From NCBI RefSeq assembly GCF_900172225.1, contig NZ_FWFO01000001.1:806001-870000 (forward strand): 64,000 bases of DNA, read 5' to 3'. Under the pieces are notes generated by a model. That model saw nothing but the letters and a program-made list of their open reading frames with translations, was not told where the DNA came from and searched no databases. Position 1 is the first letter of the stretch, and the number at the start of each line of letters is the position of its first letter. This stretch comes from Falsiruegeria litorea R37. GTDB lineage: Bacteria > Pseudomonadota > Alphaproteobacteria > Rhodobacterales > Rhodobacteraceae. Of this stretch, positions 8,355 to 63,526 are shown one piece after another. The position numbers were made by a program, and so were the translations under genes.

Positions 8355-8366
8355 TTCTCTGTGGGG

Positions 8367-8741: not shown

Positions 8742-8758
8742 GGCAGTGGTTCCCTCTG

Positions 8759-8825
8759 TGTAACCGGGGCTCAGAGATGTGCCTTCTTGCGGGTCTTTAT
8801 GGTGTTACATATATCGTCGGTTACA
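8759..8825. promoter_or_regulatory. Three GTTACA repeats in the HxlR/nitroreductase gap
   Basis: The hexamer GTTACA occurs at 8804-8809 and 8820-8825 (direct, 16 bases apart) and as its reverse complement at 8759-8764. They lie in the divergent promoter region and are candidate binding sites for the HxlR protein. Confidence 0.5.
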
Positions 8826-8870
8826 AAATTATACCACCCCGGGGCGGGTGCCCCACAAAGGACGCAAGAT

Positions 8871-9512: not shown

Positions 9513-9580
9513 TCTGGCGGTTGACAGGGCGGTCCGTTTGGCCGCCCTCTTTCTTTGACACACCTTGCAGGATCACAGAC

Positions 9581-10690: not shown

Positions 10691-10720
10691 CGGCTTTGCT
10701 TTGATTGCCGATGCCGAATT

Positions 10721-10746
10721 CCGGGGCCCGCGCAAAAGGGTCCCGG
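10721..10746. terminator. Hairpin between convergent OYE and racemase genes
   Basis: CCGGGGCCC (10721-10729) pairs with GGGTCCCGG (10738-10746) through nine pairs with one G-T wobble. No strong T-run follows. Confidence 0.4.
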
Positions 10747-10841
10747 AAAGCCAAAGACAGCTAGGCGCCTGAGCCTGGTGGCTATTCATTGGCCAAGTTC
10801 GCCAAGGGTTGAATTGCAATGAAATGTCTCTTGCCGTGCAA

Positions 10842-11525
10842 TCAATGGCGCGAATAGGCCCCAATTTTCGAAGTGCCCAGCCGGTTGTTCACCAGCGCCT
10901 CGGCAAATGTGACACCTGCTGCGACGCCATCGATCACTGGTAACCCGAATTCCTCGCTGAGTTGCGCCATGAGATCCGCCATTCCGGCACACCCCAAAAC
11001 GATTGCTTCGGTATTGTCTTGCTCAATTGAATCGCGGATTTCGGACTTGATCTTGAACATTGTTGCCGGGTCGCCCTCTTCCAGTTTGAGGACAGGAATG
11101 TCTGTTGCTCGGACGCGCGCGCATTTTTGAGCAAGCCCATAGCGCATCAGGTTGTGCTCCAGCCCAGGAACCGAACGTGAGAGCGTTGTGATGACACTGA
11201 ACTTGTTGGCAATCATGGTGGCTGCATGATAGGCGGCCTCGCCAATACCCAAGACTGGTACGTTGACCAGAGACCGCACTGCATCCACGCCGGTATCATC
11301 GAAACAGGCAATCACAATAGCATCAACATCCTGATGTCGCGAAACCTCGGCCAGCAGGCCGGGGATGCAGTTGGCGACATCCAGATAGCCCTGAATACTG
11401 GCGGGGCCATCTTGCGAGTTGGTGGCCACAATCTCTGTATCCGGACGGGCAACAGCCTTTGCTGCGATCCCAATTTTTTCTGTCATAGAGGTAGTCGTGT
11501 TCGGGTTGATAACCAAGATTTTCAT
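10842..11525 (-). CDS. Asp/Glu/hydantoin racemase family protein
   Basis: A 227-residue cofactor-independent racemase-like protein. It opens MKILVINPNTTTSMTEKI, the signature of hydantoin racemases. The two expected catalytic cysteines are present in VIACFDDTG and VLGCAGMADL. Members include hydantoin racemase, aspartate/glutamate racemase and maleate isomerase. It is the last gene of a six-gene minus-strand operon behind a Liv-type ABC importer, with a six-base gap to the upstream ATPase gene, so it probably acts on the imported compound or an early intermediate, perhaps an amino acid amide or hydantoin. That substrate is inference. Confidence 0.88.
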   Translation of the reverse strand: MKILVINPNTTTSMTEKIGIAAKAVARPDTEIVATNSQDGPASIQGYLDVANCIPGLLAEVSRHQDVDAIVIACFDDTGVDAVRSLVNVPVLGIGEAAYHAATMIANKFSVITTLSRSVPGLEHNLMRYGLAQKCARVRATDIPVLKLEEGDPATMFKIKSEIRDSIEQDNTEAIVLGCAGMADLMAQLSEEFGLPVIDGVAAGVTFAEALVNNRLGTSKIGAYSRH

Positions 11526-48299: not shown

Positions 48300-48403
48300 T
48301 TCGTCTCACTCCCTGGCGTCTTCTGCCGGAATCACGCCTGTGTTTCCGGTTTTGTCAGAATTAGACTACCCAAGAGATTGTTAGTATGCAAATGTATTAT
48401 TGA

Positions 48404-48413
48404 GCGTTCACTT
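48404..48413. promoter_or_regulatory. Half-site related to AGTGAACG dyad
   Basis: AGCGTTCACT (reverse complement AGTGAACGCT) shares the 8-base half AGTGAACG with the dyads at 485 and 40957. It lies in the divergent promoter region of the aromatic-CoA cluster. Only one half-site is intact. Confidence 0.3.
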
Positions 48414-48436
48414 AGGTTCGCAAATCGAGATAAATC

Positions 48437-48489
48437 GCCCAAGGGCATGACGCAAGCCGATGGCAGATGTGCCGTTGCGTACCTTGGGC
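48437..48489 (+). promoter_or_regulatory. Nested inverted repeats in the leader of the SDR gene
   Basis: Three nested stems: GCCCAAGG / CCTTGGGC (48437-48444 with 48482-48489), ACGCAA / TTGCGT (48450-48455 with 48475-48480) and GGC / GCC. The structure ends just before the ribosome site of the gene at 48510. Confidence 0.5.
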
Positions 48490-48509
48490 CGGGATATGAG
48501 GAGTTCGAA

Positions 48510-49271
48510 ATGAAAATCGAAAACGCATCCGCGATCGTAACAGGCGGGGCTTCGGGGCTGGGCTTTGCCACCGCCAAGGTGCTGGCCGAAAAGGGCGCCA
48601 AAGTGGCCCTGTTCGACCTGCCGGGCGACAAGCTGGAGGCCTCTGCCAAGGAACTGGGCGCGGTTGCCGCCCCCTGTGACGTCACCAGCGCCGATGGCGT
48701 TGCCGCCGCGCTGGAAACTGCCATCGCCGCCAACGGCCTGCCGCGCATCGCCGTCAACTGCGCCGGTGTCACCCATGGCGAGCGCATCGTCGGGCGCAAT
48801 GGCGCGGCCTCGCTCGAAGCATTCTCCCGCACGGTTCAGATCAACCTGATCGGCACCTTCAACGTGATGCGTCTGGTGGCCGAGAAGATGGCCCAGAACG
48901 ACGCACTCGACGACAACGAACGCGGCGTGATCATCAACACCTCGTCGGCTGCGGCGTTCGAGGGCCAGATCGGCCAGGCGGCCTATGCTGCGTCCAAGGG
49001 CGGTGTCGCCAGCCTCACCCTGCCAGCCGCGCGCGAGTTCGCCCGTTCCGGCATCCGCGTGCTGGCGATTGCGCCGGGCATCTTCTCGACCCCGATGATG
49101 GATCTGTTGCCGCAGGACATTCAGGACAGCCTTGGCGCCAAGGTGCCGTTCCCCTCGCGCCTTGGCAAACCCGCCGAATTCGCGCAGCTTGCAGGCCATA
49201 TGATCGAGAACACCATGCTCAACGGGGAATGCGTGCGCCTTGACGGTGCCATCCGCCTTGAGCCGAAGTAA
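48510..49271 (+). CDS. SDR family 3-hydroxyacyl-CoA dehydrogenase-like
   Basis: About 253 residues; the ATG at 48510 is preceded by GAGGAG. An in-frame ATG at 48449 would extend it by 20 residues but lies inside the leader hairpin. [10 protein letters not shown] (cofactor loop), NCAGVTHGE, the Ser in [12 protein letters not shown] and the YAASK catalytic motif are intact. The sequence matches the type 2 3-hydroxyacyl-CoA dehydrogenase (HSD10-like) group. It fits with the ligase, dehydrogenase, hydratase and thiolase around it as the oxidation step of beta-oxidation-like side-chain shortening. Confidence 0.9.
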
Positions 49272-49283
49272 GGGACGCCCGCA

Positions 49284-50054
49284 ATGGAATATACCCACAT
49301 CACCAGCGAGACCGACGGCAATATCGGTATCCTGACGCTTGACCGCCCGGCCAAATTCAACGCCATCAACCAAGGGCTGCTTTACGAGATCGAGCACTAT
49401 TTCGACACCCTGCCGGATGAGGTGGGCGCGGTGGTGATCCGCTCGTCGGGACAGCATTTCTGCGCGGGTCTCGACCTGCTGGAACACTCCATGCGCGACG
49501 CCGCGGGCGCGATGCACGAATGCCGCCTCTGGCATCGGATTTTCGACAAGATCGAATACGGCCGGGTGCCAGTTGTGGCTGCCATGAACGGCGGCGTCTT
49601 GGGCGGTGGGATGGAACTGGCCATGACCGCCCATATCCGGGTGAGCCAAGAGGACACCTTCTATGAACTCCCCGAAGGCCGCCGCGCGATCTTTGTCGGC
49701 GGTGGCGCCACTGTGCGCGTGGGTCGCATCATCGGCGCAAGTCGGATGATGGAGATGATGCTGACCGGTCGCCGCTATCTGGCGCAGCAGGGCCTGGATC
49801 TTGGGCTAGCCCACTACGTCGAACCCAACGGCACCGCCTTTGACAAGGCGATGGAGCTGGCCCGCCGCGTGACCGAAAATGCGCCGCTGTCGAACTACAT
49901 GATGATGCAGGCCATCACCCGCATCAACGACATGTCCGCCAGCGACGGTCTGTTCACCGAAAGCCTGGCTGCCGCCATCGCCCAATCTTCGCCCGAAGCG
50001 CGCGCCGGGATGGAGGCCTTCCTGGCCAAGACAGGCAAACGGGACAATCAGTAA
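49284..50054 (+). CDS. Enoyl-CoA hydratase/isomerase family protein
   Basis: A 256-residue crotonase-fold protein. VVIRSSGQHFCAGLDLLEHS and AAMNGGVLGGGMELAMTAHIRVSQEDTFYELPEGRRAIFVGGGATVRVGRIIG form the CoA oxyanion hole and active site; the hydratase glutamates fall near FYELPEGR. It could be a hydratase, an isomerase or, with a feruloyl-CoA ligase in the cluster, a hydroxycinnamoyl-CoA hydratase-lyase. It follows the SDR gene by 12 bases. Confidence 0.9.
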   Translation: MEYTHITSETDGNIGILTLDRPAKFNAINQGLLYEIEHYFDTLPDEVGAVVIRSSGQHFCAGLDLLEHSMRDAAGAMHECRLWHRIFDKIEYGRVPVVAAMNGGVLGGGMELAMTAHIRVSQEDTFYELPEGRRAIFVGGGATVRVGRIIGASRMMEMMLTGRRYLAQQGLDLGLAHYVEPNGTAFDKAMELARRVTENAPLSNYMMMQAITRINDMSASDGLFTESLAAAIAQSSPEARAGMEAFLAKTGKRDNQ

Positions 50055-50421: not shown

Positions 50422-50678
50422 TTAGATTTCAATGGCCTCTGCAATGGCAAGGGCATCCTCAAGCTCGACGCCCAAGTATCTGACCGTGCTGTCCATCTTC
50501 GTGTGACCTAGCAAAAGCTGAACCGCCCGCAGATTGCCTGTCTTCTTGTAGATCTGCGTAACTTTTGTTCTTCTCATTGAGTGCGTGCCATAAGCGCTGG
50601 CTTCCAGTCCAATCGACGTAACCCAATCGCGAACAATCCGCGCATACTGACGGGTTGAGATGTGCAAGCGTTCATGGA
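50422..50678 (-). repeat. Direct repeat DR-L (3' part of the recombinase)
   Basis: 257 bp that align without gaps to 61313-61569; by hand about 45 mismatches, roughly 82% identity, many at third codon positions. The repeats bracket the 10.6-kb TRAP/sulfatase segment. Confidence 0.85.
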
Positions 50679-51054
50679 AACGGCCTGGCCATAGGTACTC
50701 AGAGCCGACCATTAGTTCGTCTTCCATCCACTTCTCAATAGATGCGCGTGTACCCTCAGAAATCTCGAAGCGTACCGGTTTCTGAGTTTTGCTTTGCAGA
50801 ATGGAAGCGCGCTCATTGATTTGGCCCGATGCCATGACATCGACCACTTTCATCTTCACGAGATCACAACCTCTGAGTTTGCTGTCGATGGCCATGTTGA
50901 ACAATGCTAGGTCGCGATGGTTCTCGGCAAGTTCAAGCCTTACGCGGATCGCCCAGACGTGCTTTGGTTTAAGCGGACGTTTCTGGCCGACTATGCGGCC
51001 CTTGTTCCAAGCGGGGCGAAGTGCGCGAATGGCTGGTAGGTTTGGTGTTTCCAT
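50422..51054 (-). CDS. Tyrosine recombinase (site-specific integrase)
   Basis: About 210 residues from the ATG at 51054 (METPNLPAIRALRPAWNKG). All catalytic residues of the tyrosine recombinases are present: Arg in DSKLRGCDLV, the beta-strand Lys in SKTQKPVRFE, His and Arg in THSMRRT, His in LLGHTKMDS and the nucleophile Tyr in VRYLGVEL. It is short and lacks a separate N-terminal arm-binding domain, like the compact recombinases scattered in Rhodobacterales genomes. Its last 85 codons are repeated at 61313-61569 in the same orientation. It probably marks the left edge of an island. Confidence 0.9.
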   Translation of the reverse strand: METPNLPAIRALRPAWNKGRIVGQKRPLKPKHVWAIRVRLELAENHRDLALFNMAIDSKLRGCDLVKMKVVDVMASGQINERASILQSKTQKPVRFEISEGTRASIEKWMEDELMVGSEYLWPGRFHERLHISTRQYARIVRDWVTSIGLEASAYGTHSMRRTKVTQIYKKTGNLRAVQLLLGHTKMDSTVRYLGVELEDALAIAEAIEI

Positions 51055-51281
51055 GACTGATCCTCCGATCCGCCATGCCCCCCACAACGACAACCCGATG
51101 TTGACCAATGCGGGTTATCACAAAAATTCTGCGCCGCCTCCGAGGCTCACAAGTCGCCCTCCTAGATCTTTCGTCAGTGAACAATGGTCGCCTGGTTCGT
51201 AGCGTAGATCGAAGGACTGGCTTGCTGGAGCAATCTAAGTCGAACCCGGCCAGAAATTGACTGGGTTCGTGGGGTTCCGAA

Positions 51282-52259
51282 TTACTCGATCACGCCAGCC
51301 TCGCGATAGTATCGCGCGGCGCCGTGGTGGAGCTCAATCATGCCGCGGCTCTCTGACGCAAATGAGACGTCCAGAGCTTTCGCCCATGGTGCATCCGACG
51401 TCACTTGATCGAGGTTATCCCAGAACGCTTTCGTCAGATTGTAGACAGTTTCTTCGTCGACGTCTGCGCTGACGGCGATACCGACGGCTGTGTTCCAGGA
51501 TTCAATTGCGCCGTCATTAAGTTGACCGTCGTACTGACCTGGCTGGACCTGATCGCGATACCGGAACGGCCCGAGCCATTCGTCGATACCACCAGCGAAA
51601 GGTTCGGCAGGAGCAAGGAAGCGCACCTCTTCTGTCTCAGTGAATTGGATAAACTGACCACAGGGATCGAGGCAGCCGTTTACGTACATGTCGACTTTGC
51701 CGTCCAGAAATGCCTGGAAACCGGTTTGCCAGTTCGCAGCGATTGCTTCGTAGTCTTGCCCGGCAACAAGACCTGTCGTTGCCTCGATCCACCCCTTGGC
51801 TCCGTTGTATGCGCCACCGCCCTGAGGGCCGAGAAAGACGGTTGTGCCTTCAAGGTCATCCAGAACCTCGATGTCACTGTCACCCCGCACCGCGAAGTGA
51901 TACGGACCCCAAGGGAACCACATCAAAAGACGCACATTTTTTGCGGCATCCGGCGCGTCTGTCTCTTTGGCGTACATGACTTTGCCGCCCGCCATCAGGT
52001 TGTAGATAACCGGGCTGGTCATCGCCATTTCGAGGTTGCCACGGCCGACTTCCAGTTGGTGCAGAGTGGCAGCACCACCGGCGGCCACCTCGATTTCGAC
52101 CCCTTCAACATTCTCGTTCACCACATTGGCAAAAGTGGCCATCGTGATGGACGCCCCAAGGCTTGGGGCAATTGTCGCCATCTTAAGTTTCGTGTCATCG
52201 GCCTGCGCTGGAAGCGTCAAACCCGCAGCTAGTATCGCTGCAAGACCAAAGTTACGCAT
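51282..52259 (-). CDS. TAXI-family TRAP transporter substrate-binding protein
   Basis: A 325-residue periplasmic receptor with signal peptide MRNFGLAAILAAGLTLPAQA. The fold opens LKMATIAPSLGASITMATFANVVNE and continues with VEIEVAAGGAATLHQLEVGRGNLEMAMTSPVIYNLM, the TAXI pattern. It captures the ligand in the periplasm for the fused TRAP permease encoded just upstream (eight-base overlap). Neighbouring sulfatases suggest an organosulfate or similar anion as ligand. The 51055-51281 gap on its 3' side holds no other gene. Confidence 0.9.
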   Translation of the reverse strand: MRNFGLAAILAAGLTLPAQADDTKLKMATIAPSLGASITMATFANVVNENVEGVEIEVAAGGAATLHQLEVGRGNLEMAMTSPVIYNLMAGGKVMYAKETDAPDAAKNVRLLMWFPWGPYHFAVRGDSDIEVLDDLEGTTVFLGPQGGGAYNGAKGWIEATTGLVAGQDYEAIAANWQTGFQAFLDGKVDMYVNGCLDPCGQFIQFTETEEVRFLAPAEPFAGGIDEWLGPFRYRDQVQPGQYDGQLNDGAIESWNTAVGIAVSADVDEETVYNLTKAFWDNLDQVTSDAPWAKALDVSFASESRGMIELHHGAARYYREAGVIE

Positions 52260-54375
52260 GAGTTTCCTCCCTGTTTTTAGCGTTGTTCGTTTGGTTGTCG
52301 ATGGACCCAGATTGCGGCGGGCTCAAAAGCCTGTGCACGACAATCAGGGACATGGCCGCGGCAAGCGATATGGCCGCGGTAAGGGTATGGGGGATCAGAA
52401 TGGCTATGCCGACGATCGCGCGCAAAGCACGCTCCCAGCCGCGCAATTCATTGCGCTCAAAGCCGGTCAGTGCGGAAGAGATCATCCACATTGCCACGAC
52501 AAAGGCGATGAAGACCCAAGCGAGACCCAACCAAGTGACCGCGGTCAATTCGACCATTGCCTTTGATCGCGGCAGGTCTTCCCCGAACCAGACAAACAGC
52601 GTCTGCAATTTGTAGAGTGCGGCAGGGTGGTAGACGAAGACAAAGGGTATGATGAAGCCCGCGACCGACAGGCGGGCGGCTTGGAGGCCGGTTATCAAGG
52701 GGCTTGCGCCCGCTATCGGCGCTGCCGCGAAAGCTGCGAGCGCGACAGGCGGCGTGACGGCAGAGATCACCGCAAAGAACACAACGAACATGTGGAGTGT
52801 AAGGGGCGCTATTCCCACAGCTTCGATGCCCGATGACAACGCGATTACGATGATGAAGTACGTCGCACCTGGTGGAAGGCCCATGCCCAGGACGATCGCG
52901 CCGAGTGCCACAACAATGAGGGTCAGGAACAATGGGCCAGATGCCAACTGAGCAAGCAGCAACGACAGGCGCCCGGAGAAGCCAGACACTTGGATGAGCC
53001 CAACGATCAAGCCGATCGTCGCGACAATCACAACGATAGATGCGCTCATCCGACCAGCTTCTGCAAACGCGCCATAAATCTTGCGCCAAGACCGATAATT
53101 CGGGAACAGAACCAGCGCGGCAAGCAATGCAGTTACAAATCCATAAAACCCTGCTTTTTGCACTGAGGGCTGCGCGAACAGCATGTAGCTCATGACCCCA
53201 AGAGGTAGAATGAAGACTAGGCATTGTACTTTTTCGCGGGTGGTAAGTCTCGGTCGTTCGTCGCGCGGGAGAGCGCCGATGCCCTGACGGCGTGCTTCGA
53301 AATAGACGGTCAGGAAAATACCGATGTAGTAGAAGATCGCGGGCACAATCGCGGCAACCACGATGTATCGGTATTCAAGTCCGATTTGGCCAGCCACGAA
53401 AAAGGCAACAACGCCCATCACTGGCGGCATGATTTGCCCACCGGTTGAGGCAGAAGCCTCAACGGCCCCAGCAAAGCTTGGCTTGAAGCCAGAGCGTTTG
53501 ATGACCGGAATGGTCATCACGCCGGTGGATACGACATTAGAAATCGCCGCCCCGGACAGGGTCCCAAAAAGTGCCGAAGACGCGACCGCCGCGTGCGCGG
53601 CACCGCCTGTAATTCCACCGGTTAAGCGGTTTGCGATTTTCATTAAGAGCGAGCCTGCACCGCTTGCCATCAGCACCGAGCCAAACACCAAAAAGATGAG
53701 GACGTTCCCCGACACGACTTGCAGGGGTTGGCCGAACATGCCCCCGGTTTGAGACCAGAAGTTTAGAACCATAGATCTGATTGATTGGTCGAATGAACTT
53801 TCGGCACCCGCAAAGATGCCCGTCCATTCGGGCAGTGCACCGCGCACGACGAAATACACGATCCAGAACAGGCAAAACCCGACGATAAAGGCGCCAAACA
53901 GTCGCCATGTCAGGTAGATCGTCAGAACAGTGGCGATCGGAAACAGGATAAAGTCCATCGGTTTTGCCGATGGCAGGATGCCGACATCGACACCGAACAG
54001 CTTTCCGATCCACACGGCAAATACGAATGCAGAGAGCGCAGCCAAGACCCAGTTCACCCACTTTGCCTTCATCGGTAAGGCCAAAAATGAAATCACGAAG
54101 GACAACAGCAGCGGCAGCCCAAGGATCATGCCTGTCGGAAGTAAGAAGTTCCGCTCAAAAGACTTCAAGCCGGCGCCCAGCCAGTGCTCTTTGAAAAGCA
54201 CGCGTTGGTCCCGGCGGGACATGTCATCGAAGCCCGGTGTCGTCGTCTCGATAAACCATCGCACGAAGTCGGTGAGTGGCCCGGATGCCGCGTAGATCAC
54301 AATCACCAGCGTAAAGATAACGCCAACAAAACTGCCGAAACGCTGCTCTACCGATTTGGTCACCGCGTCGCTCAA
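52252..54375 (-). CDS. Fused TRAP transporter permease (4TM plus 12TM)
   Basis: A 707-residue membrane protein with about 16-18 helices. The N-terminal part holds the small-subunit-like helices; the large DctM-type part contains MASGAGSLLMKIANRLTGGITGGAAHAAVASSALFGTLSGAAISNVVSTG and EASASTGGQIMPPVMGVVAFFVAG, with a second-half repeat GMGLPPGATYFIIVIALSSGIEAVG. This fused form is the usual partner of TAXI receptors and uses an ion gradient. It is the first gene of the transporter operon, divergent from tetR. Confidence 0.92.
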   Translation of the reverse strand: MSDAVTKSVEQRFGSFVGVIFTLVIVIYAASGPLTDFVRWFIETTTPGFDDMSRRDQRVLFKEHWLGAGLKSFERNFLLPTGMILGLPLLLSFVISFLALPMKAKWVNWVLAALSAFVFAVWIGKLFGVDVGILPSAKPMDFILFPIATVLTIYLTWRLFGAFIVGFCLFWIVYFVVRGALPEWTGIFAGAESSFDQSIRSMVLNFWSQTGGMFGQPLQVVSGNVLIFLVFGSVLMASGAGSLLMKIANRLTGGITGGAAHAAVASSALFGTLSGAAISNVVSTGVMTIPVIKRSGFKPSFAGAVEASASTGGQIMPPVMGVVAFFVAGQIGLEYRYIVVAAIVPAIFYYIGIFLTVYFEARRQGIGALPRDERPRLTTREKVQCLVFILPLGVMSYMLFAQPSVQKAGFYGFVTALLAALVLFPNYRSWRKIYGAFAEAGRMSASIVVIVATIGLIVGLIQVSGFSGRLSLLLAQLASGPLFLTLIVVALGAIVLGMGLPPGATYFIIVIALSSGIEAVGIAPLTLHMFVVFFAVISAVTPPVALAAFAAAPIAGASPLITGLQAARLSVAGFIIPFVFVYHPAALYKLQTLFVWFGEDLPRSKAMVELTAVTWLGLAWVFIAFVVAMWMISSALTGFERNELRGWERALRAIVGIAILIPHTLTAAISLAAAMSLIVVHRLLSPPQSGSIDNQTNNAKNREETHA

Positions 54376-54401
54376 GACATCCTCCCAATGTCAAAAACAA
54401 A

Positions 54402-54417
54402 AATGAGAATACTCATT
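54402..54417. promoter_or_regulatory. TetR-type dyad AATGAG-AATA-CTCATT
   Basis: A perfect 6-bp inverted repeat with four central bases in the 106-base gap between the TRAP permease and tetR. It lies 4 bases upstream of the tetR -35 box, well placed to control both directions. Confidence 0.65.
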
Positions 54418-54421
54418 CTTG

Positions 54422-54450
54422 TTGACATGGCAAGCCATCCTTTGCACGAT
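54422..54450 (+). promoter_or_regulatory. Candidate promoter of the tetR-sulfatase operon
   Basis: A consensus -35 TTGACA (54422-54427) and a weak -10 CACGAT (54445-54450) are 17 bases apart, 31 bases before the GTG start of tetR. A second small palindrome, ATGGC-AA-GCCAT, lies inside the spacer. Confidence 0.5.
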
Positions 54451-54481
54451 TTGAACAAAGGCCAAACACGGGGATTGCAGC

Positions 54482-55171
54482 GTGGACACCACTCTTCTGG
54501 AACTAGTTGATCCGATCCCGGGGGTGCGGCCCGCAGAGCAGAACCGCAGCAGAGCGCTACAGGACAGGTTCGTCACCGCTGGGCGCGAGGTTCTGTTGTC
54601 GACCCGACTGGACGATCTCGCGATCCCTGCTCTTGCCAAGGCTGCGAACAGTTCGGTCGGCGGATTTTATTCGCGCTTCGAAACCAAGGACGCGTTCTTC
54701 GAATTCTTGAGGCACCGTATGCTCACCGAGCATATGACCCTTTATAGCGAACACCTATCGCCTTCTCGGTTCGACGGCAAAACCCGACAGGATGTGAGCG
54801 AAGCCTTTGTGGATGTCATGCTGATTGTCTTTTCGGGACACTGGCGTGGTGTTCTGCGCGAAGCTTACGCTCTGTTGACGCTACGGCCTGAAAGCTGGGC
54901 ACCCATGAAGGCGCGCGGTCAGTATCTTCGGCAGCGCGTAACGGAGTTGTATAGCCCTCTTGTTAGCAATCGTGTTGGGCTTGAAGAGCGGGTTTCTTTC
55001 GCCATGCAACTGCTGTTTTCGGCGCTCAACAACGAGATGATGAACCCGAACCTGTCGTTCAGCATCAAAGATGAAGCGTTTCGCCGTCATCTGATTGTCA
55101 CCTTGGATACGCTCGTCGCCGGGGATTTGACACTGCCCGTGACGGGTGGAGAGGGCAAACACGATGCATGA
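54482..55171 (+). CDS. TetR/AcrR-family regulator
   Basis: A 229-residue regulator from a GTG start at 54482. The helix-turn-helix LLSTRLDDLAIPALAKAANSSVGGFYSRFETKDAFFEFL spans about residues 38-78; the ligand-binding domain follows. It is divergent from the TRAP transporter and its last codons overlap the alkylsulfatase start by eight bases, so it is coexpressed with the catabolic genes. It most likely represses both units and is released by the imported compound. Confidence 0.9.
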   Translation: MDTTLLELVDPIPGVRPAEQNRSRALQDRFVTAGREVLLSTRLDDLAIPALAKAANSSVGGFYSRFETKDAFFEFLRHRMLTEHMTLYSEHLSPSRFDGKTRQDVSEAFVDVMLIVFSGHWRGVLREAYALLTLRPESWAPMKARGQYLRQRVTELYSPLVSNRVGLEERVSFAMQLLFSALNNEMMNPNLSFSIKDEAFRRHLIVTLDTLVAGDLTLPVTGGEGKHDA

Positions 55172-57050
55172 CCTGAGTGCCCTAGAGGAACGGCTATTGG
55201 CGTCCACTGAAGCCGCCAACAGTTCTGTCGCCACGCGCCTGCCACTCAACGATCTTGCGGATTTCGACGCAGCCCAAAGAGGGAAGATCGCGGACCTTCC
55301 GTTCGGCGGGGTCATGAATGCGCATAGGAGCAAAGCTTGGGATATGGCGCAATACGATTTCCTTAGGGAAGAGTGCCCTGTCACGGTCAATCCGTCGCTC
55401 TGGCGCATGGCGCAGTTGAACGCGATCGGCGGGCTGTTTGAGGTGACGCGAGGTGTTTGGCAGGCGCGCGGCTTTGACTATGCGAACATGACGATCATCC
55501 AAGGTGACACCGGCTGGATTCTTGTCGATCCGCTTATGACCGCCGAAACGTCCGCATCTGCATTGCAAGTCGTCAACGATACATTGGGCGCGCGCGACGT
55601 GAGTGCCGTGATCATAACGCACACGCACCCTGATCATTTTGGTGGCTTGCGTGGTGTGGTCGATGCTGCAGCACCACCGCCGATCTATGCCCCCGAAGGC
55701 TTTATGGACTACGCCGCTTCAGAAGGCGTGCTGGGCGGCAACCATACATCACGGCGGGCGATTTATCAGTTCGGTCTAACGTTGGGAGAAGGCGCCGAAG
55801 GCACCGTCGATGGGGGCATTGGAAAAACCGTCGGCAAAGGCAGCCGCACCTTTGTGCCGCCAACAGAGTTCGTCGGCGAAACCGGCGCAGAACGCATTAT
55901 CGACGGCGTGCGCTTTGTCTTTGCGATGGCAAGCGGAACAGAAGCACCGGCCGAATTCACGTTTCTATTGCCGGATCATCGAGTGATGTGCATGGCCGAG
56001 GTTTGTACGCAAACACAGCATAACATTCTGACCCCGCGCGGCGCGCAGGTGCGCGATGCTCTGCTTTGGGCCCGGTGCATCGACGAGGCGGCCACTTTGT
56101 TTGCCGATCAGGCGGACGTACTCATCAATTGCCACAACTGGCCCGTTTGGGGGCAAGACAATCTGCGAGCTTATCTTGCGGAGCAGCGGGACATTTACAA
56201 ATACATCCACGACCAGACTCTGCGGCTCGCCAATCTTGGGCACACACCAAATGAGATTGCTGAGAAGATCGCAGAGCCGGACTGGCTCAGCACTAAGTTC
56301 CATGCGCGCGGTTATTACGGAACGCTCAAGTTCAATGCACGTGCCGTATACCAGTACTACTATGGATTCTTCGATGGCAACCCGGTCAACATTGATCCGC
56401 TAGCGCCAACTGCTTTGGGGACGCGGTTGACAGAGGCCTTGGGCGGGCCTGATCGCGTCATGGAACTAGCGCAAAAGGCCATTGAAGACGACGACCTGCA
56501 ATGGGCCGCGACGCTGCTTTCCGGCCTTGCCTTTGCAAAAGAAGGTGGAGCACGTGCCAAGCGCCTGCTTGCCCTCGTATATCGGCATCAAGGCTTCCGC
56601 GATGAAAGCGGCATTATGCGCAACATCTACCTGATGGGCGCAAAGGAGCTTGAGGAAGGCGTCACGCCTGTGCCTGCAGCCGGTGGGCGTAACGCAGATC
56701 TTGCCGCGACACTCAGCGCAAAAGATTGGTTTGACGCTTACGCCCTACGGCTGAATGCCGACAAAGCAAGAGATGTGAACCTTGTCTTGAACTTCAACGT
56801 TGATGGGCAAGACCTATGCGTCACGGTTCTGCGACAAGTCGAATTCGCGCGCATGAACGTGCTACATCCGAACCCGGATGCCGAAATCACCGTGTCCTTG
56901 CCGCTTCTGGAGGGTCTCGCAAATGGAGATCTGTCCTTCGAGGATGCCCAATCCAAAGGCGCCTTGATCAAAGGGAACTCAGAAGCCTTGAAACATTGGC
57001 TGGCGCTGCATGACACGTTCGACCTTTGGTTCGACATTGTGACGCCATGA
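55164..57050 (+). CDS. Metallo-beta-lactamase-type alkylsulfatase
   Basis: About 628 residues from the ATG at 55164. The zinc motif THTHPDHFGG (HxHxDH) and EVCTQTQHNILTPRGAQVRDALLW are those of the SdsA1/BDS1 alkylsulfatases; a dimerisation domain (MELAQKAIEDDDLQWAATLLSGLAF) and a C-terminal SCP2-like domain (LVLNFNVDGQDLCVTVLRQVEFARMNVL, ISLPLLEGL-like segment) complete the layout. Unlike secreted SdsA1 it has no signal peptide, so it should act on an imported alkyl sulfate. These enzymes cleave the C-O bond with inversion. Its stop overlaps the next start (ATGA). Confidence 0.9.
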   Translation: MHDLSALEERLLASTEAANSSVATRLPLNDLADFDAAQRGKIADLPFGGVMNAHRSKAWDMAQYDFLREECPVTVNPSLWRMAQLNAIGGLFEVTRGVWQARGFDYANMTIIQGDTGWILVDPLMTAETSASALQVVNDTLGARDVSAVIITHTHPDHFGGLRGVVDAAAPPPIYAPEGFMDYAASEGVLGGNHTSRRAIYQFGLTLGEGAEGTVDGGIGKTVGKGSRTFVPPTEFVGETGAERIIDGVRFVFAMASGTEAPAEFTFLLPDHRVMCMAEVCTQTQHNILTPRGAQVRDALLWARCIDEAATLFADQADVLINCHNWPVWGQDNLRAYLAEQRDIYKYIHDQTLRLANLGHTPNEIAEKIAEPDWLSTKFHARGYYGTLKFNARAVYQYYYGFFDGNPVNIDPLAPTALGTRLTEALGGPDRVMELAQKAIEDDDLQWAATLLSGLAFAKEGGARAKRLLALVYRHQGFRDESGIMRNIYLMGAKELEEGVTPVPAAGGRNADLAATLSAKDWFDAYALRLNADKARDVNLVLNFNVDGQDLCVTVLRQVEFARMNVLHPNPDAEITVSLPLLEGLANGDLSFEDAQSKGALIKGNSEALKHWLALHDTFDLWFDIVTP

Positions 57051-58063
57051 AGCAAGGTGTCTGGTCTGTCGATGACGCGCGTTCTCTCCGTTTTCAAGAT
57101 GGCGCGCGACGGTCTGAGTGGCACAATCGATACGGACGCCACGTGCAACATCTCGTCCAAGCGGCATTTCACGCGTCTGGCACAGTTTTCGGCGACCGCG
57201 TTTACTCGCCGGTATTGCGACGTGCATCCGCGCGAATGAACGCAAATCGCGAAACCGCGTACAATGGATACGACCCGAAACCAACCGACATTATCTGCTC
57301 GGCTTACTTCAAGGCCGGGACAAACTGGATCATGCATGTGTGCTATCAGATTGCCCATCTGGGCCAAGGTGAGTTCGCACATGTTCAAGACGAAATCGCG
57401 TGGCCGGACGCCGCTCAACCCAAGTACTGGCGCGCGCTGTCGGATGACAACGCAAGCGCATCGCCAACAGGCTATCGTGTTGTTAAATCTCACCTCTCAG
57501 CCGATCGCACGCCCATCTATAGCCCGGCAAAGTTCATCGCCATGACGCGCGATCCCGTGGATTGCGCGGCGTCTGGGTATCATTTCTTTGCCAAGCTCTA
57601 CTTTGGTCCGATGACACCGCCGCCTGACGTCTGGCTTCGGTTTTTCGGGTCGGAACATGCGTTCTGGGGGCCATGGTGCGATTTCACCGCGTCGTGGTGG
57701 GCCGAGCGGCATCGCAAGAATGTGCTGTTCCTGCGCTTCGAAGACATGAAATCTGCACCGGAAAATACCGTTGCGCAGATCGCTGGCTTTCTGGGTGTAG
57801 ACCTTTCGACAGGCCAAATCGAGCGCGTGCTAGAGCGGACATCGTTCAAGGCCATGAAGGCGCAAAATGAAAAGTTCTATCCCGTACGGCAAACAATCTG
57901 GAGTGCGCCCAAGGGGGAGATCATCCGCAAAGGCGCCGTGGGTGATGGCGACGCCCTGTTCTCAGATGCTGCCATCCGAAACTACCGCGCGTCCATGTCC
58001 GAAGGCCTCAACCGAGCCGGATCGGATTTTCCCTTCTATGACCTCCTTGAGGGCACTTCATGA
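57047..58063 (+). CDS. PAPS-dependent sulfotransferase
   Basis: About 338 residues if the ATG at 57047 is used, which overlaps the alkylsulfatase stop; a second ATG at 57236 gives 275 residues and starts nearer the usual N-terminus (NGYDPKPTDIICSAYFKAGTNWI). The PAPS 5' loop FKAGTNW, the 3' site RDPVDCAASGYHFF and the C-terminal RKGAVGDG are intact. It transfers sulfate from PAPS to an alcohol or amine in the cytoplasm. A sulfotransferase inside a sulfatase operon is unexpected. The stop overlaps the GMC start (ATGA). See the finding on its N-terminus. Confidence 0.85.
   Translation: MKQGVWSVDDARSLRFQDGARRSEWHNRYGRHVQHLVQAAFHASGTVFGDRVYSPVLRRASARMNANRETAYNGYDPKPTDIICSAYFKAGTNWIMHVCYQIAHLGQGEFAHVQDEIAWPDAAQPKYWRALSDDNASASPTGYRVVKSHLSADRTPIYSPAKFIAMTRDPVDCAASGYHFFAKLYFGPMTPPPDVWLRFFGSEHAFWGPWCDFTASWWAERHRKNVLFLRFEDMKSAPENTVAQIAGFLGVDLSTGQIERVLERTSFKAMKAQNEKFYPVRQTIWSAPKGEIIRKGAVGDGDALFSDAAIRNYRASMSEGLNRAGSDFPFYDLLEGTS
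57072..57239 (+). CDS. Small overlapping ORF or displaced N-terminus of the sulfotransferase
   Basis: A 55-codon frame (MTRVLSVFKMARDGLSGTID, then ISSKRHFTRLAQFSA) whose TGA at 57237-57239 overlaps the ATG at 57236 in ATGA fashion. Third positions are strongly G/C, better than in the competing 57047 frame over the same bases. It may be a translated leader peptide or the true N-terminus separated from the sulfotransferase by a frameshift. No ribosome site is obvious. Residues like RHFTRL and YCDVHPRE look protein-like. Confidence 0.35.
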   Translation: MTRVLSVFKMARDGLSGTIDTDATCNISSKRHFTRLAQFSATAFTRRYCDVHPRE

Positions 58064-59667
58064 AGAAACTCGAATTCGATTATGTGATTGTCGGCGGAGG
58101 GTCGGCGGGATGCGTGGTTGCCGCACGCCTTGCGGCCGAAAGCGGCGGCACAGTTGCCCTGATCGAACGCGGACGCACGGACAGCAACCGTTGGATCCAA
58201 ATCCCCGCCACGTTTTTCAAAGCCCTGCAAAGTCAGGATGCAGAGGCAATTATTTCCGAACCCGACGACAGCCTTGGTGGATTGAAGTTTCCGGTGCCGC
58301 AAGCGCGTGTGCTGGGTGGGGGATCGTCCGTCAACGGCATGCTTTATATGCGTGGCCAGGCTCAGGATTATGATGACTGGGCCGAAGTGCATGGCTGCGA
58401 CGGATGGCGCTATCAGGACGTTTTGCCTGTTTTCAAGCGCCAAGAGGCCAATCGGCAGTTTGTGAACGAATACCACGGAACAAAGGGGCCGCTTGTCGTT
58501 GATGGGCCATCTGCGCCCCATCCGGTCTCTGAGCGTCTGATTGATGCCACGGTTTCAGCGGGTGTGCCGCGAACCGACGACTTCAACGGCGCACGTCAAG
58601 AAGGTGCTGGCTGGTATCAGGTCACAGCGAGCAAAGGGCAGCGTCAGTCCGCTGCCTATTGTTTTTTGGCGCCAGAGCTGTCCCGTGAGACCCTAACCGT
58701 TTTGACGGGTCATATTGTACAGCGCGTGAGGATTGAAAACAGACGCGCCGTCGCCATCGAGGCAAAGGGCTCAGATGGCAATGACATTCTGATCCGGTCG
58801 AGACGGGAAATCGTGTTGACCGCTGGCAGCTTCCAGACACCAAAACTCCTGATGCTATCGGGCATCGGACCGCGGGATGAACTTGATCGGCACGGCATCG
58901 ACATCGTGCACGAAGCAGATGAGGTCGGACGCAATTATCAGGATCATGTCGGCGCACCGGTCACCCGGCGACTGCTGAAGCCCGTTGGTCTTCACGGATC
59001 AGACAAGGGATTGAAGGCGCTCAAACATGGCTTGGACTACTTCGTGTTTCGGCGCGGTTTGCTGACGTCAAACCTGCTGGACGCCGGTGCTTGCGTCGAT
59101 ACCGACGGAGATGGCAGGCCGGATGTGCAATACAACCTTGCGCCTTTCGCGCCGGGTGCTCCCGGGCAACCACCGCTCAATTTTCATGCGGTGCAAATTC
59201 ACCCGATGACGATGAGACCGAAGTCGCGAGGCCGTCTCGGATTGACGTCGCGCGACCCGCTAGAACCTCCAAAATTCGTGTCCGACGCGCTGCGCGAAGA
59301 GGCCGATATGGACACACTGCGGCGTGGCGTCCGGCTTGCTCAGGATATATTTTCTCAACCTGAACTACGGGACCTTGTTGGCGAAGAGATCTGGCCAGGG
59401 CCGGATGTCAGCACTGCGGTCGGCTCTAACACGTTCGATGACGCGATCCGCTCCCAGGCGCGTACAATCTACCATCCTGCCGGTACATGTCGCATGGGCC
59501 CGACTGAAGCGTCTGTCGTGGACACCCAACTGCGCGTATATGGCATCGAAGGCCTTCGAGTGGCGGATTGTTCGGTCATGCCGGCACTCGTGTCTGGAAA
59601 CACCAACGCACCCACGATGATGATTGCCGGATGTGCCGCCCAACTCATTCTTGCGGACGCACGATAG
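58060..59667 (+). CDS. GMC-family FAD oxidoreductase (choline-dehydrogenase-like)
   Basis: A 535-residue flavoprotein. The dinucleotide fold FDYVIVGGGSAGCVVAARLAAE is at residues 6-27, the FAD-binding VLGGGSSVNGMLYMRGQAQDYDDWAE and VLTAGSFQTPKLLMLSGIGP follow, and the catalytic His and Asn lie in YHPAGTCRMG and SGNTNAPTMMIAG. It oxidises a primary or secondary alcohol, plausibly the alcohol released by the sulfatases. No signal peptide. Seventeen bases separate it from the sulfatase gene. Confidence 0.92.
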   Translation: MKKLEFDYVIVGGGSAGCVVAARLAAESGGTVALIERGRTDSNRWIQIPATFFKALQSQDAEAIISEPDDSLGGLKFPVPQARVLGGGSSVNGMLYMRGQAQDYDDWAEVHGCDGWRYQDVLPVFKRQEANRQFVNEYHGTKGPLVVDGPSAPHPVSERLIDATVSAGVPRTDDFNGARQEGAGWYQVTASKGQRQSAAYCFLAPELSRETLTVLTGHIVQRVRIENRRAVAIEAKGSDGNDILIRSRREIVLTAGSFQTPKLLMLSGIGPRDELDRHGIDIVHEADEVGRNYQDHVGAPVTRRLLKPVGLHGSDKGLKALKHGLDYFVFRRGLLTSNLLDAGACVDTDGDGRPDVQYNLAPFAPGAPGQPPLNFHAVQIHPMTMRPKSRGRLGLTSRDPLEPPKFVSDALREEADMDTLRRGVRLAQDIFSQPELRDLVGEEIWPGPDVSTAVGSNTFDDAIRSQARTIYHPAGTCRMGPTEASVVDTQLRVYGIEGLRVADCSVMPALVSGNTNAPTMMIAGCAAQLILADAR

Positions 59668-59684
59668 CCAAGAAAGGCTTAAAA

Positions 59685-61154
59685 TTGAAACGACCGAATA
59701 TCCTGTTGTTCATGTCTGATAATCAGCCAGCGGACCTTTTGGGGTGTTATGGAAATGACGAAGTCATAACGCCGCATTTGAATGGACTCGCAGCGCGCGG
59801 TGTTCGGTTTTCAAATGCCTATTGCGTCAACGCGATGTGTTCGCCCTGCCGCGCATCCGTGCTGACTGGCCTCATGCCCAGTCAGCACGGCATTCATAAC
59901 TGGCTCGATGATCGATTGATTGATCATTGGCCAGAAAACTGGTCCGCCATTGGGGGCTTCGCCAACATCCCCACCATCATGAAACAGGCCGGGTACACGA
60001 CCGCGTTGATTGGCAAGTTTCACCTCGGCGTCCCGTTTACTCCACAACTGGCCTTTGATCACTGGGTGACTTTCCCGCACGGACACACGACGAGTTTTTA
60101 CGACAATGAGGTAATCGACCAGGAACAACGCTACAGGTTCGCTGGGCACACCGTTGACTTCTTCACGGATAAAACCATCGAGTTCCTCGAAGGTCAGGCC
60201 GGACAAGACGACCCTTTCTTTGCGTTTGTGCCATACAACGGTCCTTACGGTCATTGGCCGTCGATCAAGGGTCGCGCAAAGACGGAATTTGCAGATCTCT
60301 ATGATGACGCCGACATGCATTCGATCCCGCGTGAGGGTCTGTCGATCGATGTGATCGAGCGGTTTGGACTTCGGGTTGTCGAGGGCGGTGTGCGCGAGCA
60401 ACTCAAGGGCCCGCTTCTTTTGCCCAACAATATTGAGTCGCTCCGCAATTACTTTGCGCAGGTCAGTTTGATCGATCATGGGGTAGGGCGCATTCTGTCG
60501 GCACTGGATCGGTTGGACCTCGATCAAGACACCATTGTGATCTACACCGCCGATCACGGATTTTCGCTGGGCCACAATGGTGTCTGGGGACATGGCGCCG
60601 CCGCGTTCCCCGCCACAGGGCACCGGCCATCCTACAACATCCCACTGATCTTCAGCGGCGGCGGGACCACAAATGGCCATCTGTGCGAAGATCTCGTCAG
60701 CCAGATTGATCTGTTTCCAACGTTGGCTAGCTTAGCTGGTGTAAATAACGCCACACCCAGCCATCCGAGTGCTGCGAAGGATCTTGCGCCTGCCTTGGCT
60801 GGAGATGATTTGGCAGGGACAGATGCGGTCTTCTATGAGCAGGAAGAAACGCGGGTCGTACGGACAGAGGAGTGGCTCTATGTCAGTCGCTTCAAAGATG
60901 CGCCGTCTTACACTTTGAGCGACGAGCTGTATCACATTGCAAGCGATCCGAACGAACGCAACAACCTGATTGACGATCCAACACAGTCTGAGACAGTTGC
61001 CAAGCTAACTAAAAAAATCTGTGCATACTTCGACGCATTCTCGTCCGAAAAGTACGACTTGTGGAAGGGTGGTTCAGCGGCATCGAATGTCAGCTTTGAC
61101 AAGTTTTGGAAAGACGCATGGGGTGAAGACTGGTCGCCTGAGTACAGCGCATGA
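59685..61154 (+). CDS. Formylglycine-dependent sulfatase
   Basis: About 489 residues from a TTG start at 59685 with AGAAAGG seven bases upstream; it gives MKRPNILLFMSDNQPADLLGC, the expected start of a sulfatase. The FGly signature is C-S-P-C-R in NAMCSPCRASVLTG, the second metal site YTADHGFSLGHNGVWGHG. The Cys-type signature needs a formylglycine-generating enzyme, not seen in this window. No signal peptide, so cytoplasmic. It cleaves the S-O bond, unlike the alkylsulfatase in the same operon. It is the last gene before the recombinase remnant. Confidence 0.9.
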   Translation: MKRPNILLFMSDNQPADLLGCYGNDEVITPHLNGLAARGVRFSNAYCVNAMCSPCRASVLTGLMPSQHGIHNWLDDRLIDHWPENWSAIGGFANIPTIMKQAGYTTALIGKFHLGVPFTPQLAFDHWVTFPHGHTTSFYDNEVIDQEQRYRFAGHTVDFFTDKTIEFLEGQAGQDDPFFAFVPYNGPYGHWPSIKGRAKTEFADLYDDADMHSIPREGLSIDVIERFGLRVVEGGVREQLKGPLLLPNNIESLRNYFAQVSLIDHGVGRILSALDRLDLDQDTIVIYTADHGFSLGHNGVWGHGAAAFPATGHRPSYNIPLIFSGGGTTNGHLCEDLVSQIDLFPTLASLAGVNNATPSHPSAAKDLAPALAGDDLAGTDAVFYEQEETRVVRTEEWLYVSRFKDAPSYTLSDELYHIASDPNERNNLIDDPTQSETVAKLTKKICAYFDAFSSEKYDLWKGGSAASNVSFDKFWKDAWGEDWSPEYSA

Positions 61155-61696: not shown

Positions 61697-62635
61697 CTAT
61701 TCAGTTGTAGAAATGAGCTCAGGCAGGTCTTTTACGAGAGAGTTCGAACTGCATCGGATGCTCTTCATGAGTTTCTTAACAAACGCTGAGGGTCGCGCCT
61801 GCGGGTGGTGGATCAGTTGACAGGAGCGCCATCCGATACTCGCGTTGATCGGTCGGAATTTCAGCCCGGAATGGGCGCTTAAGCGTGCAGACAGTGCCGG
61901 TAGGATCAAGAGACCCAGACCAGAACGCGCCATCACCTCCATCGTCATGAGGCGCGAGGCTTCTGCGGTAAAGCTGAATTCCCGGTTCAGTTCGCGTTCG
62001 AACACCTCGATCATACGGTTGGCGGATGTGTCCCGCGGCGGGCGGATGAAATCGAATGTTGCGATGGAGTCTAACTCAACAGGTCCATCACCGGTCAGTG
62101 GATGGCCTGCGGGGAAGACAACGCAGGGGCAATCACTCAGTAGGAACTCACAGGATAGTGCGGCGTCATTCCCAGTCATTGAGGTTAGTGCGAAGTCGAC
62201 TTCTTTCGCACGCACCATGTCATAAACCCGATGATCATCGACTTCGCGGAATATTGGGAAAGCATTTGCGCCTTCTTTCCTAAGCTCCGCAAATAGAGGA
62301 GCAAGCAGGTATGTGACCAGGGACGTCGGTGTCGCGATCTGAACAATCTCGCGATCCGCCCGCGGCAGGGTCCGCACTTTGTCGAAAATCAGGCTGACGG
62401 ATCGTTCAAGCTGTTCAAAATCAGGCATCAAGGTTTGCGCGTGATTGGTCGGCAACACCACGCCCCGGCTACGTTCGATCAGCTTGACGCCCAGAAGTTC
62501 TTCCAGACGTGCGACGTGTTGGGTGACGGCGGGTTGGGTCAGGTTCAAGGACTGTGCGGCCTTGGTGAAGCTTTGCATGCGCAGCACCGTGAGAAAGCTT
62601 TGAACCAGTTTTGGGGGCAAGTCGGAACGACGCAT
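61697..62635 (-). CDS. LysR-family transcriptional regulator
   Basis: A 312-residue regulator. The N-terminal helix-turn-helix LVQSFLTVLRMQSFTKAAQSLNLTQPAVTQHVARLEELLGVKLIERS is typical, followed by a periplasmic-binding-protein-like sensor domain from about residue 90. It is divergent from the nitrilase-family gene with a 93-base gap containing an AAAGAT-N5-ATCTTT dyad. It should activate the nitrilase/enolase-superfamily unit in response to its substrate. Confidence 0.92.
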   Translation of the reverse strand: MRRSDLPPKLVQSFLTVLRMQSFTKAAQSLNLTQPAVTQHVARLEELLGVKLIERSRGVVLPTNHAQTLMPDFEQLERSVSLIFDKVRTLPRADREIVQIATPTSLVTYLLAPLFAELRKEGANAFPIFREVDDHRVYDMVRAKEVDFALTSMTGNDAALSCEFLLSDCPCVVFPAGHPLTGDGPVELDSIATFDFIRPPRDTSANRMIEVFERELNREFSFTAEASRLMTMEVMARSGLGLLILPALSARLSAHSGLKFRPINASIGWRSCQLIHHPQARPSAFVKKLMKSIRCSSNSLVKDLPELISTTE

Positions 62636-62728: not shown

Positions 62729-63526
62729 ATGAAAGTCACGGTTCTACAAATTGATGCCGGTCGGACCGGCGCAAACCAGCGTTGGTCCTTGCTGGAATCC
62801 CAAGCGCGCGCGCATGCGATGGACGGAAGCGATCTGCTGGTTTGGCCCGAGTTGTTCCTGTCAGGCTACAACGTGGGTGATGCTTTGCATGCCCATGCCG
62901 AACCCTCAGACGGTGTGTTTGCCGAACGGGTGCAGGCCTTGGCGCAAGAATTGGGCGTTGCGATCCTCTACGGCTACCCCGAACGCGCGGGCGGACAGGT
63001 CTACAATTCGGCCCTGCTGGTCGATAGCACCGGCGAGGTTCTGATCAATCATCGCAAAACCGTTCTGCCTGATGGAATTGAGCCGGATCGGTTTGGCACA
63101 GGCTCGGATTTCACATTGGTCAGATTGGGCGCGGCAATCGTCGCAGTGATGATCTGCTATGAAAGTGAATTCCCGGAAGCGGTGCGGCAGGTATCGGCGA
63201 AGGGTGCGGACGTGGTGCTTGTCGTCACCGCCTGCGCCTGGGATCAAGTGCCCAATCTGGTTGTGCCGTCACGCGCTTACGAGAACGGCGTGTTTATGGT
63301 CTACGCCAATTTCTGCGGCGTTGAGAATGGCCACGCCTTCGCAGGGCTAAGCTGTATCGTCGATCCCTACGGCAACGATCTGGCTCGTGCTGGCCGCGAA
63401 GAAGAAGCGATCACCGCCAAGCTTGATCTTGCCCTTGTGCGCGAAGCCCGTGCCCGGCTTCCGTATCTGCGCGACCACGGAAAAATTCCGCGTAACCCAA
63501 AATTTTCAAAGGACAGCCCCCGATGA
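62729..63526 (+). CDS. Carbon-nitrogen hydrolase (nitrilase superfamily amidase)
   Basis: A 265-residue enzyme with the Glu-Lys-Cys triad: Glu in LVWPELFLSGYN, Lys in NHRKTVLPDG and Cys in VMICYESEFPE. The lack of nitrilase-specific features and the length suggest an aliphatic amidase or carbamoylase-type activity. Its stop overlaps the enolase-superfamily start (ATGA), so the two act together, probably on an amide-bearing acid. Divergent from LysR. Confidence 0.88.
   Translation: MKVTVLQIDAGRTGANQRWSLLESQARAHAMDGSDLLVWPELFLSGYNVGDALHAHAEPSDGVFAERVQALAQELGVAILYGYPERAGGQVYNSALLVDSTGEVLINHRKTVLPDGIEPDRFGTGSDFTLVRLGAAIVAVMICYESEFPEAVRQVSAKGADVVLVVTACAWDQVPNLVVPSRAYENGVFMVYANFCGVENGHAFAGLSCIVDPYGNDLARAGREEEAITAKLDLALVREARARLPYLRDHGKIPRNPKFSKDSPR

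Follow-up and report, generated by a model that had tools for sequence, protein, structure and literature searches.

Organosulfates are plentiful in the sea, and to our knowledge little is known about how small organosulfates enter bacteria. This question is raised by a locus of the alphaproteobacterium Falsiruegeria litorea R37, in which a tripartite ATP-independent periplasmic (TRAP) transporter with a TAXI-family receptor stands divergent from genes for two unrelated sulfatases, a sulfotransferase and an alcohol oxidiser. What does the transporter bring in, and what do the enzymes do with it? The locus lies at the right end of a stretch of 64,000 nucleotides (contig NZ_FWFO01000001.1, positions 806,001 to 870,000; hereafter the window, to which coordinates refer unless another locus is named), on a genomic island. 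The answer that we consider probable is that the island serves to import a small organic sulfate ester and to break it down in the cytoplasm.

Gene order and operon geometry

The leftward unit consists of a fused TRAP permease (52252–54375, minus strand; TIGR02123, 448 bits against a cut-off of 321) and a TAXI-family periplasmic receptor (51282–52259, minus strand; PF16868), whose open reading frames (ORFs) overlap by 8 bases. The rightward unit, all on the plus strand, begins with a weakly assigned TetR-like regulator (54482–55171). It continues with a metallo-beta-lactamase (MBL)-type alkylsulfatase of the YjcS/Pisa1/SdsA1 family, probably cytoplasmic (55164–57050), a cytosolic-type sulfotransferase dependent on 3'-phosphoadenosine-5'-phosphosulfate (PAPS; 57047–58063) and a choline-dehydrogenase-like FAD alcohol dehydrogenase or oxidase of the GMC family (58060–59667), and ends with a formylglycine (FGly)-type sulfatase without a visible signal peptide (59685–61154). 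The regulator and alkylsulfatase genes overlap by 8 bases with the alkylsulfatase start at ATG 55164, the alkylsulfatase and sulfotransferase genes by 4 bases with ATG 57047 inside the ORF listed from 57026, and the sulfotransferase and GMC genes by 4 bases with ATG 58060. A gap of 17 bases separates the GMC gene from the FGly sulfatase gene, provided that the latter starts at TTG 59685, which was preferred here, the listed ORF start at 59568 being taken as over-extended. With these four starts, the coordinates, overlaps, intergenic gap, families and catalytic motifs given in a preliminary description of this DNA all hold, and the spacing bears out its tight operon. The gene that it called tetR is in place, but the family assignment is weak (PF00440, 21.1 bits against a cut-off of 24; best PDB match, E 0.0069).

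The 106-bp gap between the divergent units contains a 28-bp inverted repeat (54396–54423; 12-bp arms, 11 of 12 positions paired), a candidate operator that was equalled in 8 of 2000 dinucleotide shuffles of the gap. A promoter-like site for the TRAP unit coincides in part with the repeat, but sites of this kind are no more frequent than in shuffled sequence (2 against a mean of 4.5). The TetR-like protein may repress both units at this palindrome until an inducer comes. All four enzymes look cytoplasmic when their sequences are read, since the catalytic domains of the GMC enzyme and the FGly sulfatase start few residues in and the other two enzymes have no hydrophobic leader. This agrees with the earlier claim that signal peptides are missing: inspection by eye, with no predictor used, found no signal-like N-terminus in any of them.

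Sulfatase-type genes often accompany the TAXI clade

The receptor scores 110 against TIGR02122 (cut-off 84), and its predicted fold is closest to solved TAXI proteins, the best four reaching template modelling (TM) scores of 0.79–0.80 on the query. A glutamate-type TAXI was considered and rejected: where TtGluBP has a certain Tyr and a certain Gln, all 39 aligned clade sequences have Ala/Ser and Ser, respectively, in an alignment that is weak at the N-terminus and that leaves the Gln equivalence inferred. The two TtGluBP residues were tentatively equated with Y45 and Q93, the glutamate determinants of VcGluP (PMC11574862). Two cysteines of the receptor, C196 and C200 (NGCxDPC), are invariant in all 39 aligned clade proteins.

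Loci of the clade were collected with an alignment of four TAXI proteins and two peptide patterns, each species being represented by a single genome. The best 80 of 81 loci were kept, among them three that had supplied sequences to the query alignment (L105, L112 and L114) and loci with short flanks. They are mostly alphaproteobacterial, with TAXI proteins 61–73% identical; among 39 aligned TAXI proteins, 3 of 741 pairs share at least 95% identity (median 69%). Neighbouring genes were called with home-made profile hidden Markov models (HMMs) built from 1 to 7 sequences. A gene of the FGly-type sulfatase superfamily was found at 56 of the 80 loci and an alkylsulfatase-type MBL gene at 32 (HMM score >200; 34 without a score limit), so that at least one of the two, at this score, is present at 64. 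Clusters without sulfatases in most relatives, which the preliminary description had named as evidence against its proposal, are thus not what the transporter's relatives present. Thirty loci hold a short-chain dehydrogenase/reductase (SDR), and 19 combine the FGly-type, MBL and SDR genes. The usual order on one strand is sulfatase, MBL gene (where present), permease and TAXI, with the SDR gene upstream or downstream.

The background is much lower: such a sulfatase gene occurs at 1 of 21 loci centred on sulfotransferases and in 0 of 8 stretches of the own genome, both being small, non-random sets. Fisher's test of 56/80 against 1/21 gives p = 4e-8, to be read with the relatedness of the TAXI loci and the shortness of some control loci. 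Among other TAXI loci, whose receptors are relatives at 28–42% identity, 5 of 13 hold a sulfatase gene at a score >200, and two more do so at weaker scores. Twelve plasmid TAXI loci were opened from 129 records found, and four of them (Marinovum, Paroceanicella, strain M382 and Paracoccus marcusii) contain a sulfatase-type gene. That distant TAXIs mostly lack the sulfatase link is as expected if the link marks the ligand. A gene of the SulP sulfate-permease family is present at 5/80 clade, 1/13 other and 2/8 plasmid TAXI loci (L149, L151, L153, L160, L173, L208, L231 and L237) and could handle sulfate freed inside the cell; the P. marcusii plasmid locus has SulP as well as its sulfatase-type gene, and at that of Leisingera SulP occurs without a sulfatase. 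A sulfate ester is the likeliest ligand of this TAXI clade. In the periplasm the receptor would capture the sulfate-ester anion, which the fused TRAP permease would then import.

Two desulfating enzymes and an alcohol oxidiser

The alkylsulfatase carries PF14863 (dimerisation; 4.8e-44), PF00753 (MBL) and PF14864 (SCP2-like C-terminal domain; 2.2e-17). Its metal motif is kept (THTHPDHFGG at residues 152–161, E260, A278-E279 and H324) and is colinear with that of YjcS, with spacings of 98, 17 and 44 against the x102, x18 and x44 given in the available text of PMC3346939. The nearest solved structures by sequence are E. coli YjcS (4pdx, 498 bits) and the inverting enzyme Pisa1 (491 bits), and the enzyme would hydrolyse alkyl sulfates, its presumed substrates, by the C–O cleavage of its family. 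The FGly sulfatase (PF00884, 8.8e-50) has a CSPCR motif that is invariant in 5 of 5 aligned sequences (the window's and four relatives), and four matches to PF03781 over its cut-off in the genome are candidates for the formylglycine-generating enzyme. To judge from its family, it would cleave the S–O bond of sulfate esters. Acting in the cytoplasm, the zinc alkylsulfatase and the FGly sulfatase would release alcohol and sulfate from sulfate esters, and the FAD-dependent GMC enzyme (PF00732 and PF05199) may oxidise the freed alcohol. The choline-O-sulfate bet genes similarly bring together a sulfatase, a choline-dehydrogenase-like GMC enzyme and a TetR-type gene. That pathway was rejected on the scores of the BetC model TIGR03417 (170.8 bits, cut-off 433) and the BetA model TIGR01810 (436 bits, cut-off 732).

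Some of these genes recur as pairs elsewhere. In genome G398, which belongs to another family, an alkylsulfatase and a GMC enzyme (59% and 67% identical to those of the window) are encoded with a 4-base overlap, on a contig other than that of its FGly sulfatase. Two glutathione S-transferase genes lie upstream of this pair (L264, 3886–9129). Orthologues of the FGly sulfatase are found in three congeneric genomes, G001, G002 and G003 (74–76%), and in G398 (71–72%). In all four they adjoin a different TAXI-TRAP, 26–28% identical to the TAXI of the window, and a second sulfatase, and the same loci hold an amidohydrolase-type ORF, whose family was tested for G001 and G398. A search for this other TAXI in the genome of the window returned only the window's own receptor (28%). 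In G001 a GMC gene (72%) lies directly upstream of the FGly sulfatase gene (74%), and the pair is divergent from the other TAXI-TRAP. As these pairs recur apart in relatives, the window combines parts, and its operon looks like a fusion of three modules, of which one is a TAXI-TRAP linked to sulfatases, another pairs alkylsulfatase with GMC enzyme, and the third pairs GMC enzyme with FGly sulfatase. The coupling of desulfation to oxidation of the alcohol, as first proposed for this locus, fits the pairs in G398 and G001 and the SDR genes of the TAXI loci.

Two unrelated sulfatases of different chemistry in one operon would also suit broad sulfur scavenging, in which the two act on different imported esters, the sulfate and not the carbon is wanted, and the oxidoreductase merely clears the alcohol. 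The sulfatase genes near other TAXI-TRAPs (the 5 of 13 above) agree with such a role. We regard it as unlikely: the recurrence of the alkylsulfatase-GMC and GMC-sulfatase pairs, once each, points to use of the alcohol, and an operon that also encodes a sulfate-adding enzyme would be wasteful of sulfur. The SulP genes near some relatives might, if they work as exporters, rid the cell of sulfate.

Within the preferred reading, import and breakdown of a sulfate ester, the term double desulfation used in the preliminary description is one of several options: the two enzymes may remove two sulfates from one molecule, act on two substrates, or act on two enantiomers of one. The last option has its appeal, since one enzyme type inverts configuration and the other retains it, and since chemists have paired these types, as described in the available part of PMC3743160. 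Taken to its end, it would make the operon an enantioconvergent machine, in which the inverting MBL alkylsulfatase and the retaining FGly sulfatase turn opposite enantiomers of an imported sec-alkyl sulfate into one alcohol, the sole one that the GMC enzyme oxidises. The sulfotransferase would re-sulfate the wrong-handed alcohol for flipping by the inverting sulfatase, a sulfate-driven epimerisation, and the 19 TAXI loci that combine FGly-type, MBL and SDR genes would be a family of such import operons. This elaboration is conjectural and very unlikely to hold as a whole.

A sulfotransferase without close relatives

The sulfotransferase (PF00685, 1.4e-36) has motifs colinear with those of human SULT1C2, namely YFKAGTNW, RDPVDCAASGYHF, VKSH (Lys-x-His) and RKGAVGD, which we take to be the 5'-phosphosulfate loop, the 3'-phosphate motif, the catalytic His and the RKG motif. 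An APS kinase for PAPS supply is encoded in the genome. The enzyme appears to be an added part of the operon and, judged from its motifs, should be active. In its own genome the only match is itself, and the searches made gave no relative that exceeds 35% identity across more than 50 residues. The best other matches reach 35% among 147 relatives, 32% among 398 genomes of the phylum and 28% in plasmids; the 147 relatives also gave a 46-residue piece at 43%, with a stop. No relative was found in viral contigs or, by exact-peptide search only, in genome contigs. The 21 loci around distant relatives, some of them short, include the one with a sulfatase-type gene (L247, ~5 kb away) and another with a weak TAXI match ~4 kb away and a TRAP permease (L034). 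On a plasmid of Sulfitobacter indolifex (L095, 11427–15990), the single locus opened of 11 plasmid sulfotransferase matches, a weakly SnoaL-like gene, a sulfotransferase, a TAXI and a TRAP permease stand in a row.

Sulfation can activate an alcohol for elimination, as in retinol dehydratase, which is among the solved structures matched by this protein. The operon might then modify its substrate rather than consume it, with the sulfotransferase sulfating an alcohol for elimination or detoxification and the sulfatases editing or reversing the product. This idea draws on the intact motifs of the sulfotransferase, on its position in mid-operon with overlapping genes and on the S. indolifex plasmid, where a sulfotransferase gene lies directly upstream of a TAXI-TRAP. 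We give it hardly any probability, as catabolism accounts better for the divergent importer and the alcohol oxidiser and the alkylsulfatase-GMC pair exists without an intervening sulfotransferase in G398.

Evidence on the other side

Besides the weak N-terminal alignment with TtGluBP, several observations weigh against a catabolic sulfate-ester locus. The complete gene set was found nowhere else in the searched genomes and plasmids, where a search of plasmids at the DNA level returned partial matches only, and neither a sulfotransferase nor a GMC gene was detected at any of the 80 TAXI loci (0/80 each). Sixteen of these loci have neither a sulfatase-type nor an MBL gene at a score >200, five of them with little upstream DNA, and distant plasmid TAXIs have a sulfatase gene at 1 of 8 loci. 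Relatives of the FGly sulfatase at 50–54% identity (G090, G273, G367 and G444) showed no TAXI gene in the stretches examined. Eight loci of alkylsulfatase relatives at 35–44% include none with a TAXI, one with a GMC-type gene and two with a sulfatase-type gene, and in G206, whose GMC enzyme is 76–77% identical, 19.5 kb contained no sulfatase, MBL or TAXI gene.

The active sites of the sulfatase-type neighbours belong here as well. The Cys nucleophile is kept in all 70 aligned enzymes of the TAXI loci, of which only 15 are CxPxR, the others being CxAxR (44), CxGxR (6) and CxSxR (5). Two tested members score best with the NCBIfam model for the phosphoric/sulfuric ester hydrolase PehA, below its cut-off. 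A phosphoester ligand is thus possible, because most of these enzymes are CxAxR-like and not CxPxR. In that case the transporter would carry a phosphate diester, a phosphonate or another non-sulfated anion, the CxAxR neighbours would be PehA-like esterases, and the sulfatases of the window would have been joined to it by chance in the island. Three observations argue otherwise. The short MBL neighbours (~420 residues; one, tested by Pfam, lacks the C-terminal domain) have a predicted fold closest to Pisa1, SdsA1 and YjcS-type enzymes (TM 0.81–0.84 on the query), with Glu at the first and Asp at the second Glu position of the window's alkylsulfatase. Both hydrolases of the window itself have the canonical site of their kind, alkylsulfatase or FGly sulfatase, and a second, different TAXI-TRAP accompanies a CSPCR sulfatase of the window type in four genomes. 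A non-sulfated ligand is in our judgement distinctly unlikely, somewhat more so than sulfur scavenging, and a sulfate ester stays the preferred ligand.

The island and its surroundings

The preliminary description had suspected an island, and this was borne out. The insert (left edge 50,245, right edge at about 67,346, ~3.3 kb past the window end; ~17.1 kb) is missing from the corresponding place in all three congeneric genomes. On the left, a match of 88–90% ends at 50,244/50,247 in G002/G003 and at 50,054 in G001. On the right, the match to G001–G003 resumes from C1 873,346–873,603, equivalent to 67,346 and beyond in window numbering. In place of the insert these genomes carry 1.8–2.3 kb of other DNA. 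A tyrosine recombinase/integrase-type gene lies at the left end (50422–51108, minus strand; PF00589, 6.9e-17), and DNA related to it occurs at several sites in G002 and G003. Neither a tRNA gene nor a shared direct repeat was found at the island ends, where both were looked for. A 22-residue stretch at L035 (14883–14948), ~5 kb from a sulfotransferase relative in G016, is 95% identical to the C-terminal part of the integrase.

The right part of the island holds a LysR regulator (61697–62635, minus strand; PF00126, PF03466) and a carbon-nitrogen hydrolase (62729–63526, plus strand; PF00795), together with genes for an enolase-superfamily enzyme, an Ldh_2 dehydrogenase and an M24 peptidase. Just outside the island, genes for an AMP-binding ligase (46452–48299), an SDR and an enoyl-CoA hydratase (46452–50054 in all) are 88–90% conserved in the three congeneric genomes. 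Another sulfatase-superfamily ORF of the window (5173–6714, minus strand; home-made HMM score 250, CVPTR motif) adjoins an ORF whose sequence suggests an AMP-binding ligase (6732–8342). Elsewhere in the genome (L091, G000:C2:527000-546500; 4258–11237), genes resembling a tripartite tricarboxylate transporter stand directly upstream of a CMPNR sulfatase gene, to which a second alkylsulfatase with a leader-like N-terminus is convergent; here another receptor-dependent transporter lies beside sulfatases. Upstream of the window, on the same contig, is an ORF of 3456 codons (L188, 2719–13089).

Relation to known systems

The pairing of an alkylsulfatase with a GMC enzyme is not new, as it is already in print in the putative slf operon (slfRCHSL) of the Psychrobacter plasmid pP62BP1, which was proposed to convert alkyl sulfates to oxidised carbon; this and what follows on slf rest on the available part of PMC3346939. 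Both systems place an MBL alkylsulfatase beside a GMC alcohol oxidiser. In slf the alkylsulfatase carries a signal peptide, and the operon also encodes an aldehyde dehydrogenase, a CoA ligase and an AraC regulator. The enzymes of the window show no visible signals, and the locus instead includes a TAXI-TRAP importer of its own, an FGly sulfatase, a sulfotransferase and a TetR-like gene. No aldehyde dehydrogenase, fatty-acid CoA ligase or AraC regulator is found among the genes of 54482–61154. The preliminary description knew of no pathway with this exact set; the alkylsulfatase-GMC part of the set is already described. The interpretation as a whole is supported in part: the link between transporter and sulfatases, the operon and the island are upheld, but the exact combination of five genes was found nowhere else.

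The laboratory one-pot deracemisation of sec-alkyl sulfates by Pisa1 and PAS likewise combines an inverting MBL alkylsulfatase with a retaining FGly sulfatase to give one alcohol (available part of PMC3743160). There the enzymes were brought together by chemists, whereas the window encodes both types in one operon. In acesulfame degradation, an MBL-type or an FGly-type sulfatase does the same step in different strains; that system uses one sulfatase type or the other with an amidase partner, and TRAP and TAXI have 0 occurrences in the main text as available (PMC11500405).

On the transport side, VcGluP resembles the system of the window in its TAXI receptor fold and TRAP membrane component, and differs in that the clade of the window lacks the aligned glutamate determinants. 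The substrates named for TAXI-TRAPs in the accessible portion of the same source are glutamate, glutamine, pyroglutamate, orthophthalate, butyrate, fumarate and acetate (PMC11574862). Words beginning with "sulfat" are absent from the main texts of two TAXI papers (PMC11574862 and PMC12344293). No literature naming both "TAXI family" and "sulfatase" was found in a search that mostly covered sources other than subscription journals and preprints, and among the matches listed no description of a TAXI-TRAP tied to sulfatases was recognised.

Rarely do a sulfatase of inverting type and one of retaining type come together with an alcohol oxidiser and a sulfotransferase, as in the operon of the window. 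Few substrates are known for this receptor family; the link at 56 of 80 loci leads directly to sulfate esters as predicted ligands, and the sulfatase-type neighbours of the TAXI relatives suggest an overlooked uptake route for sulfated compounds.

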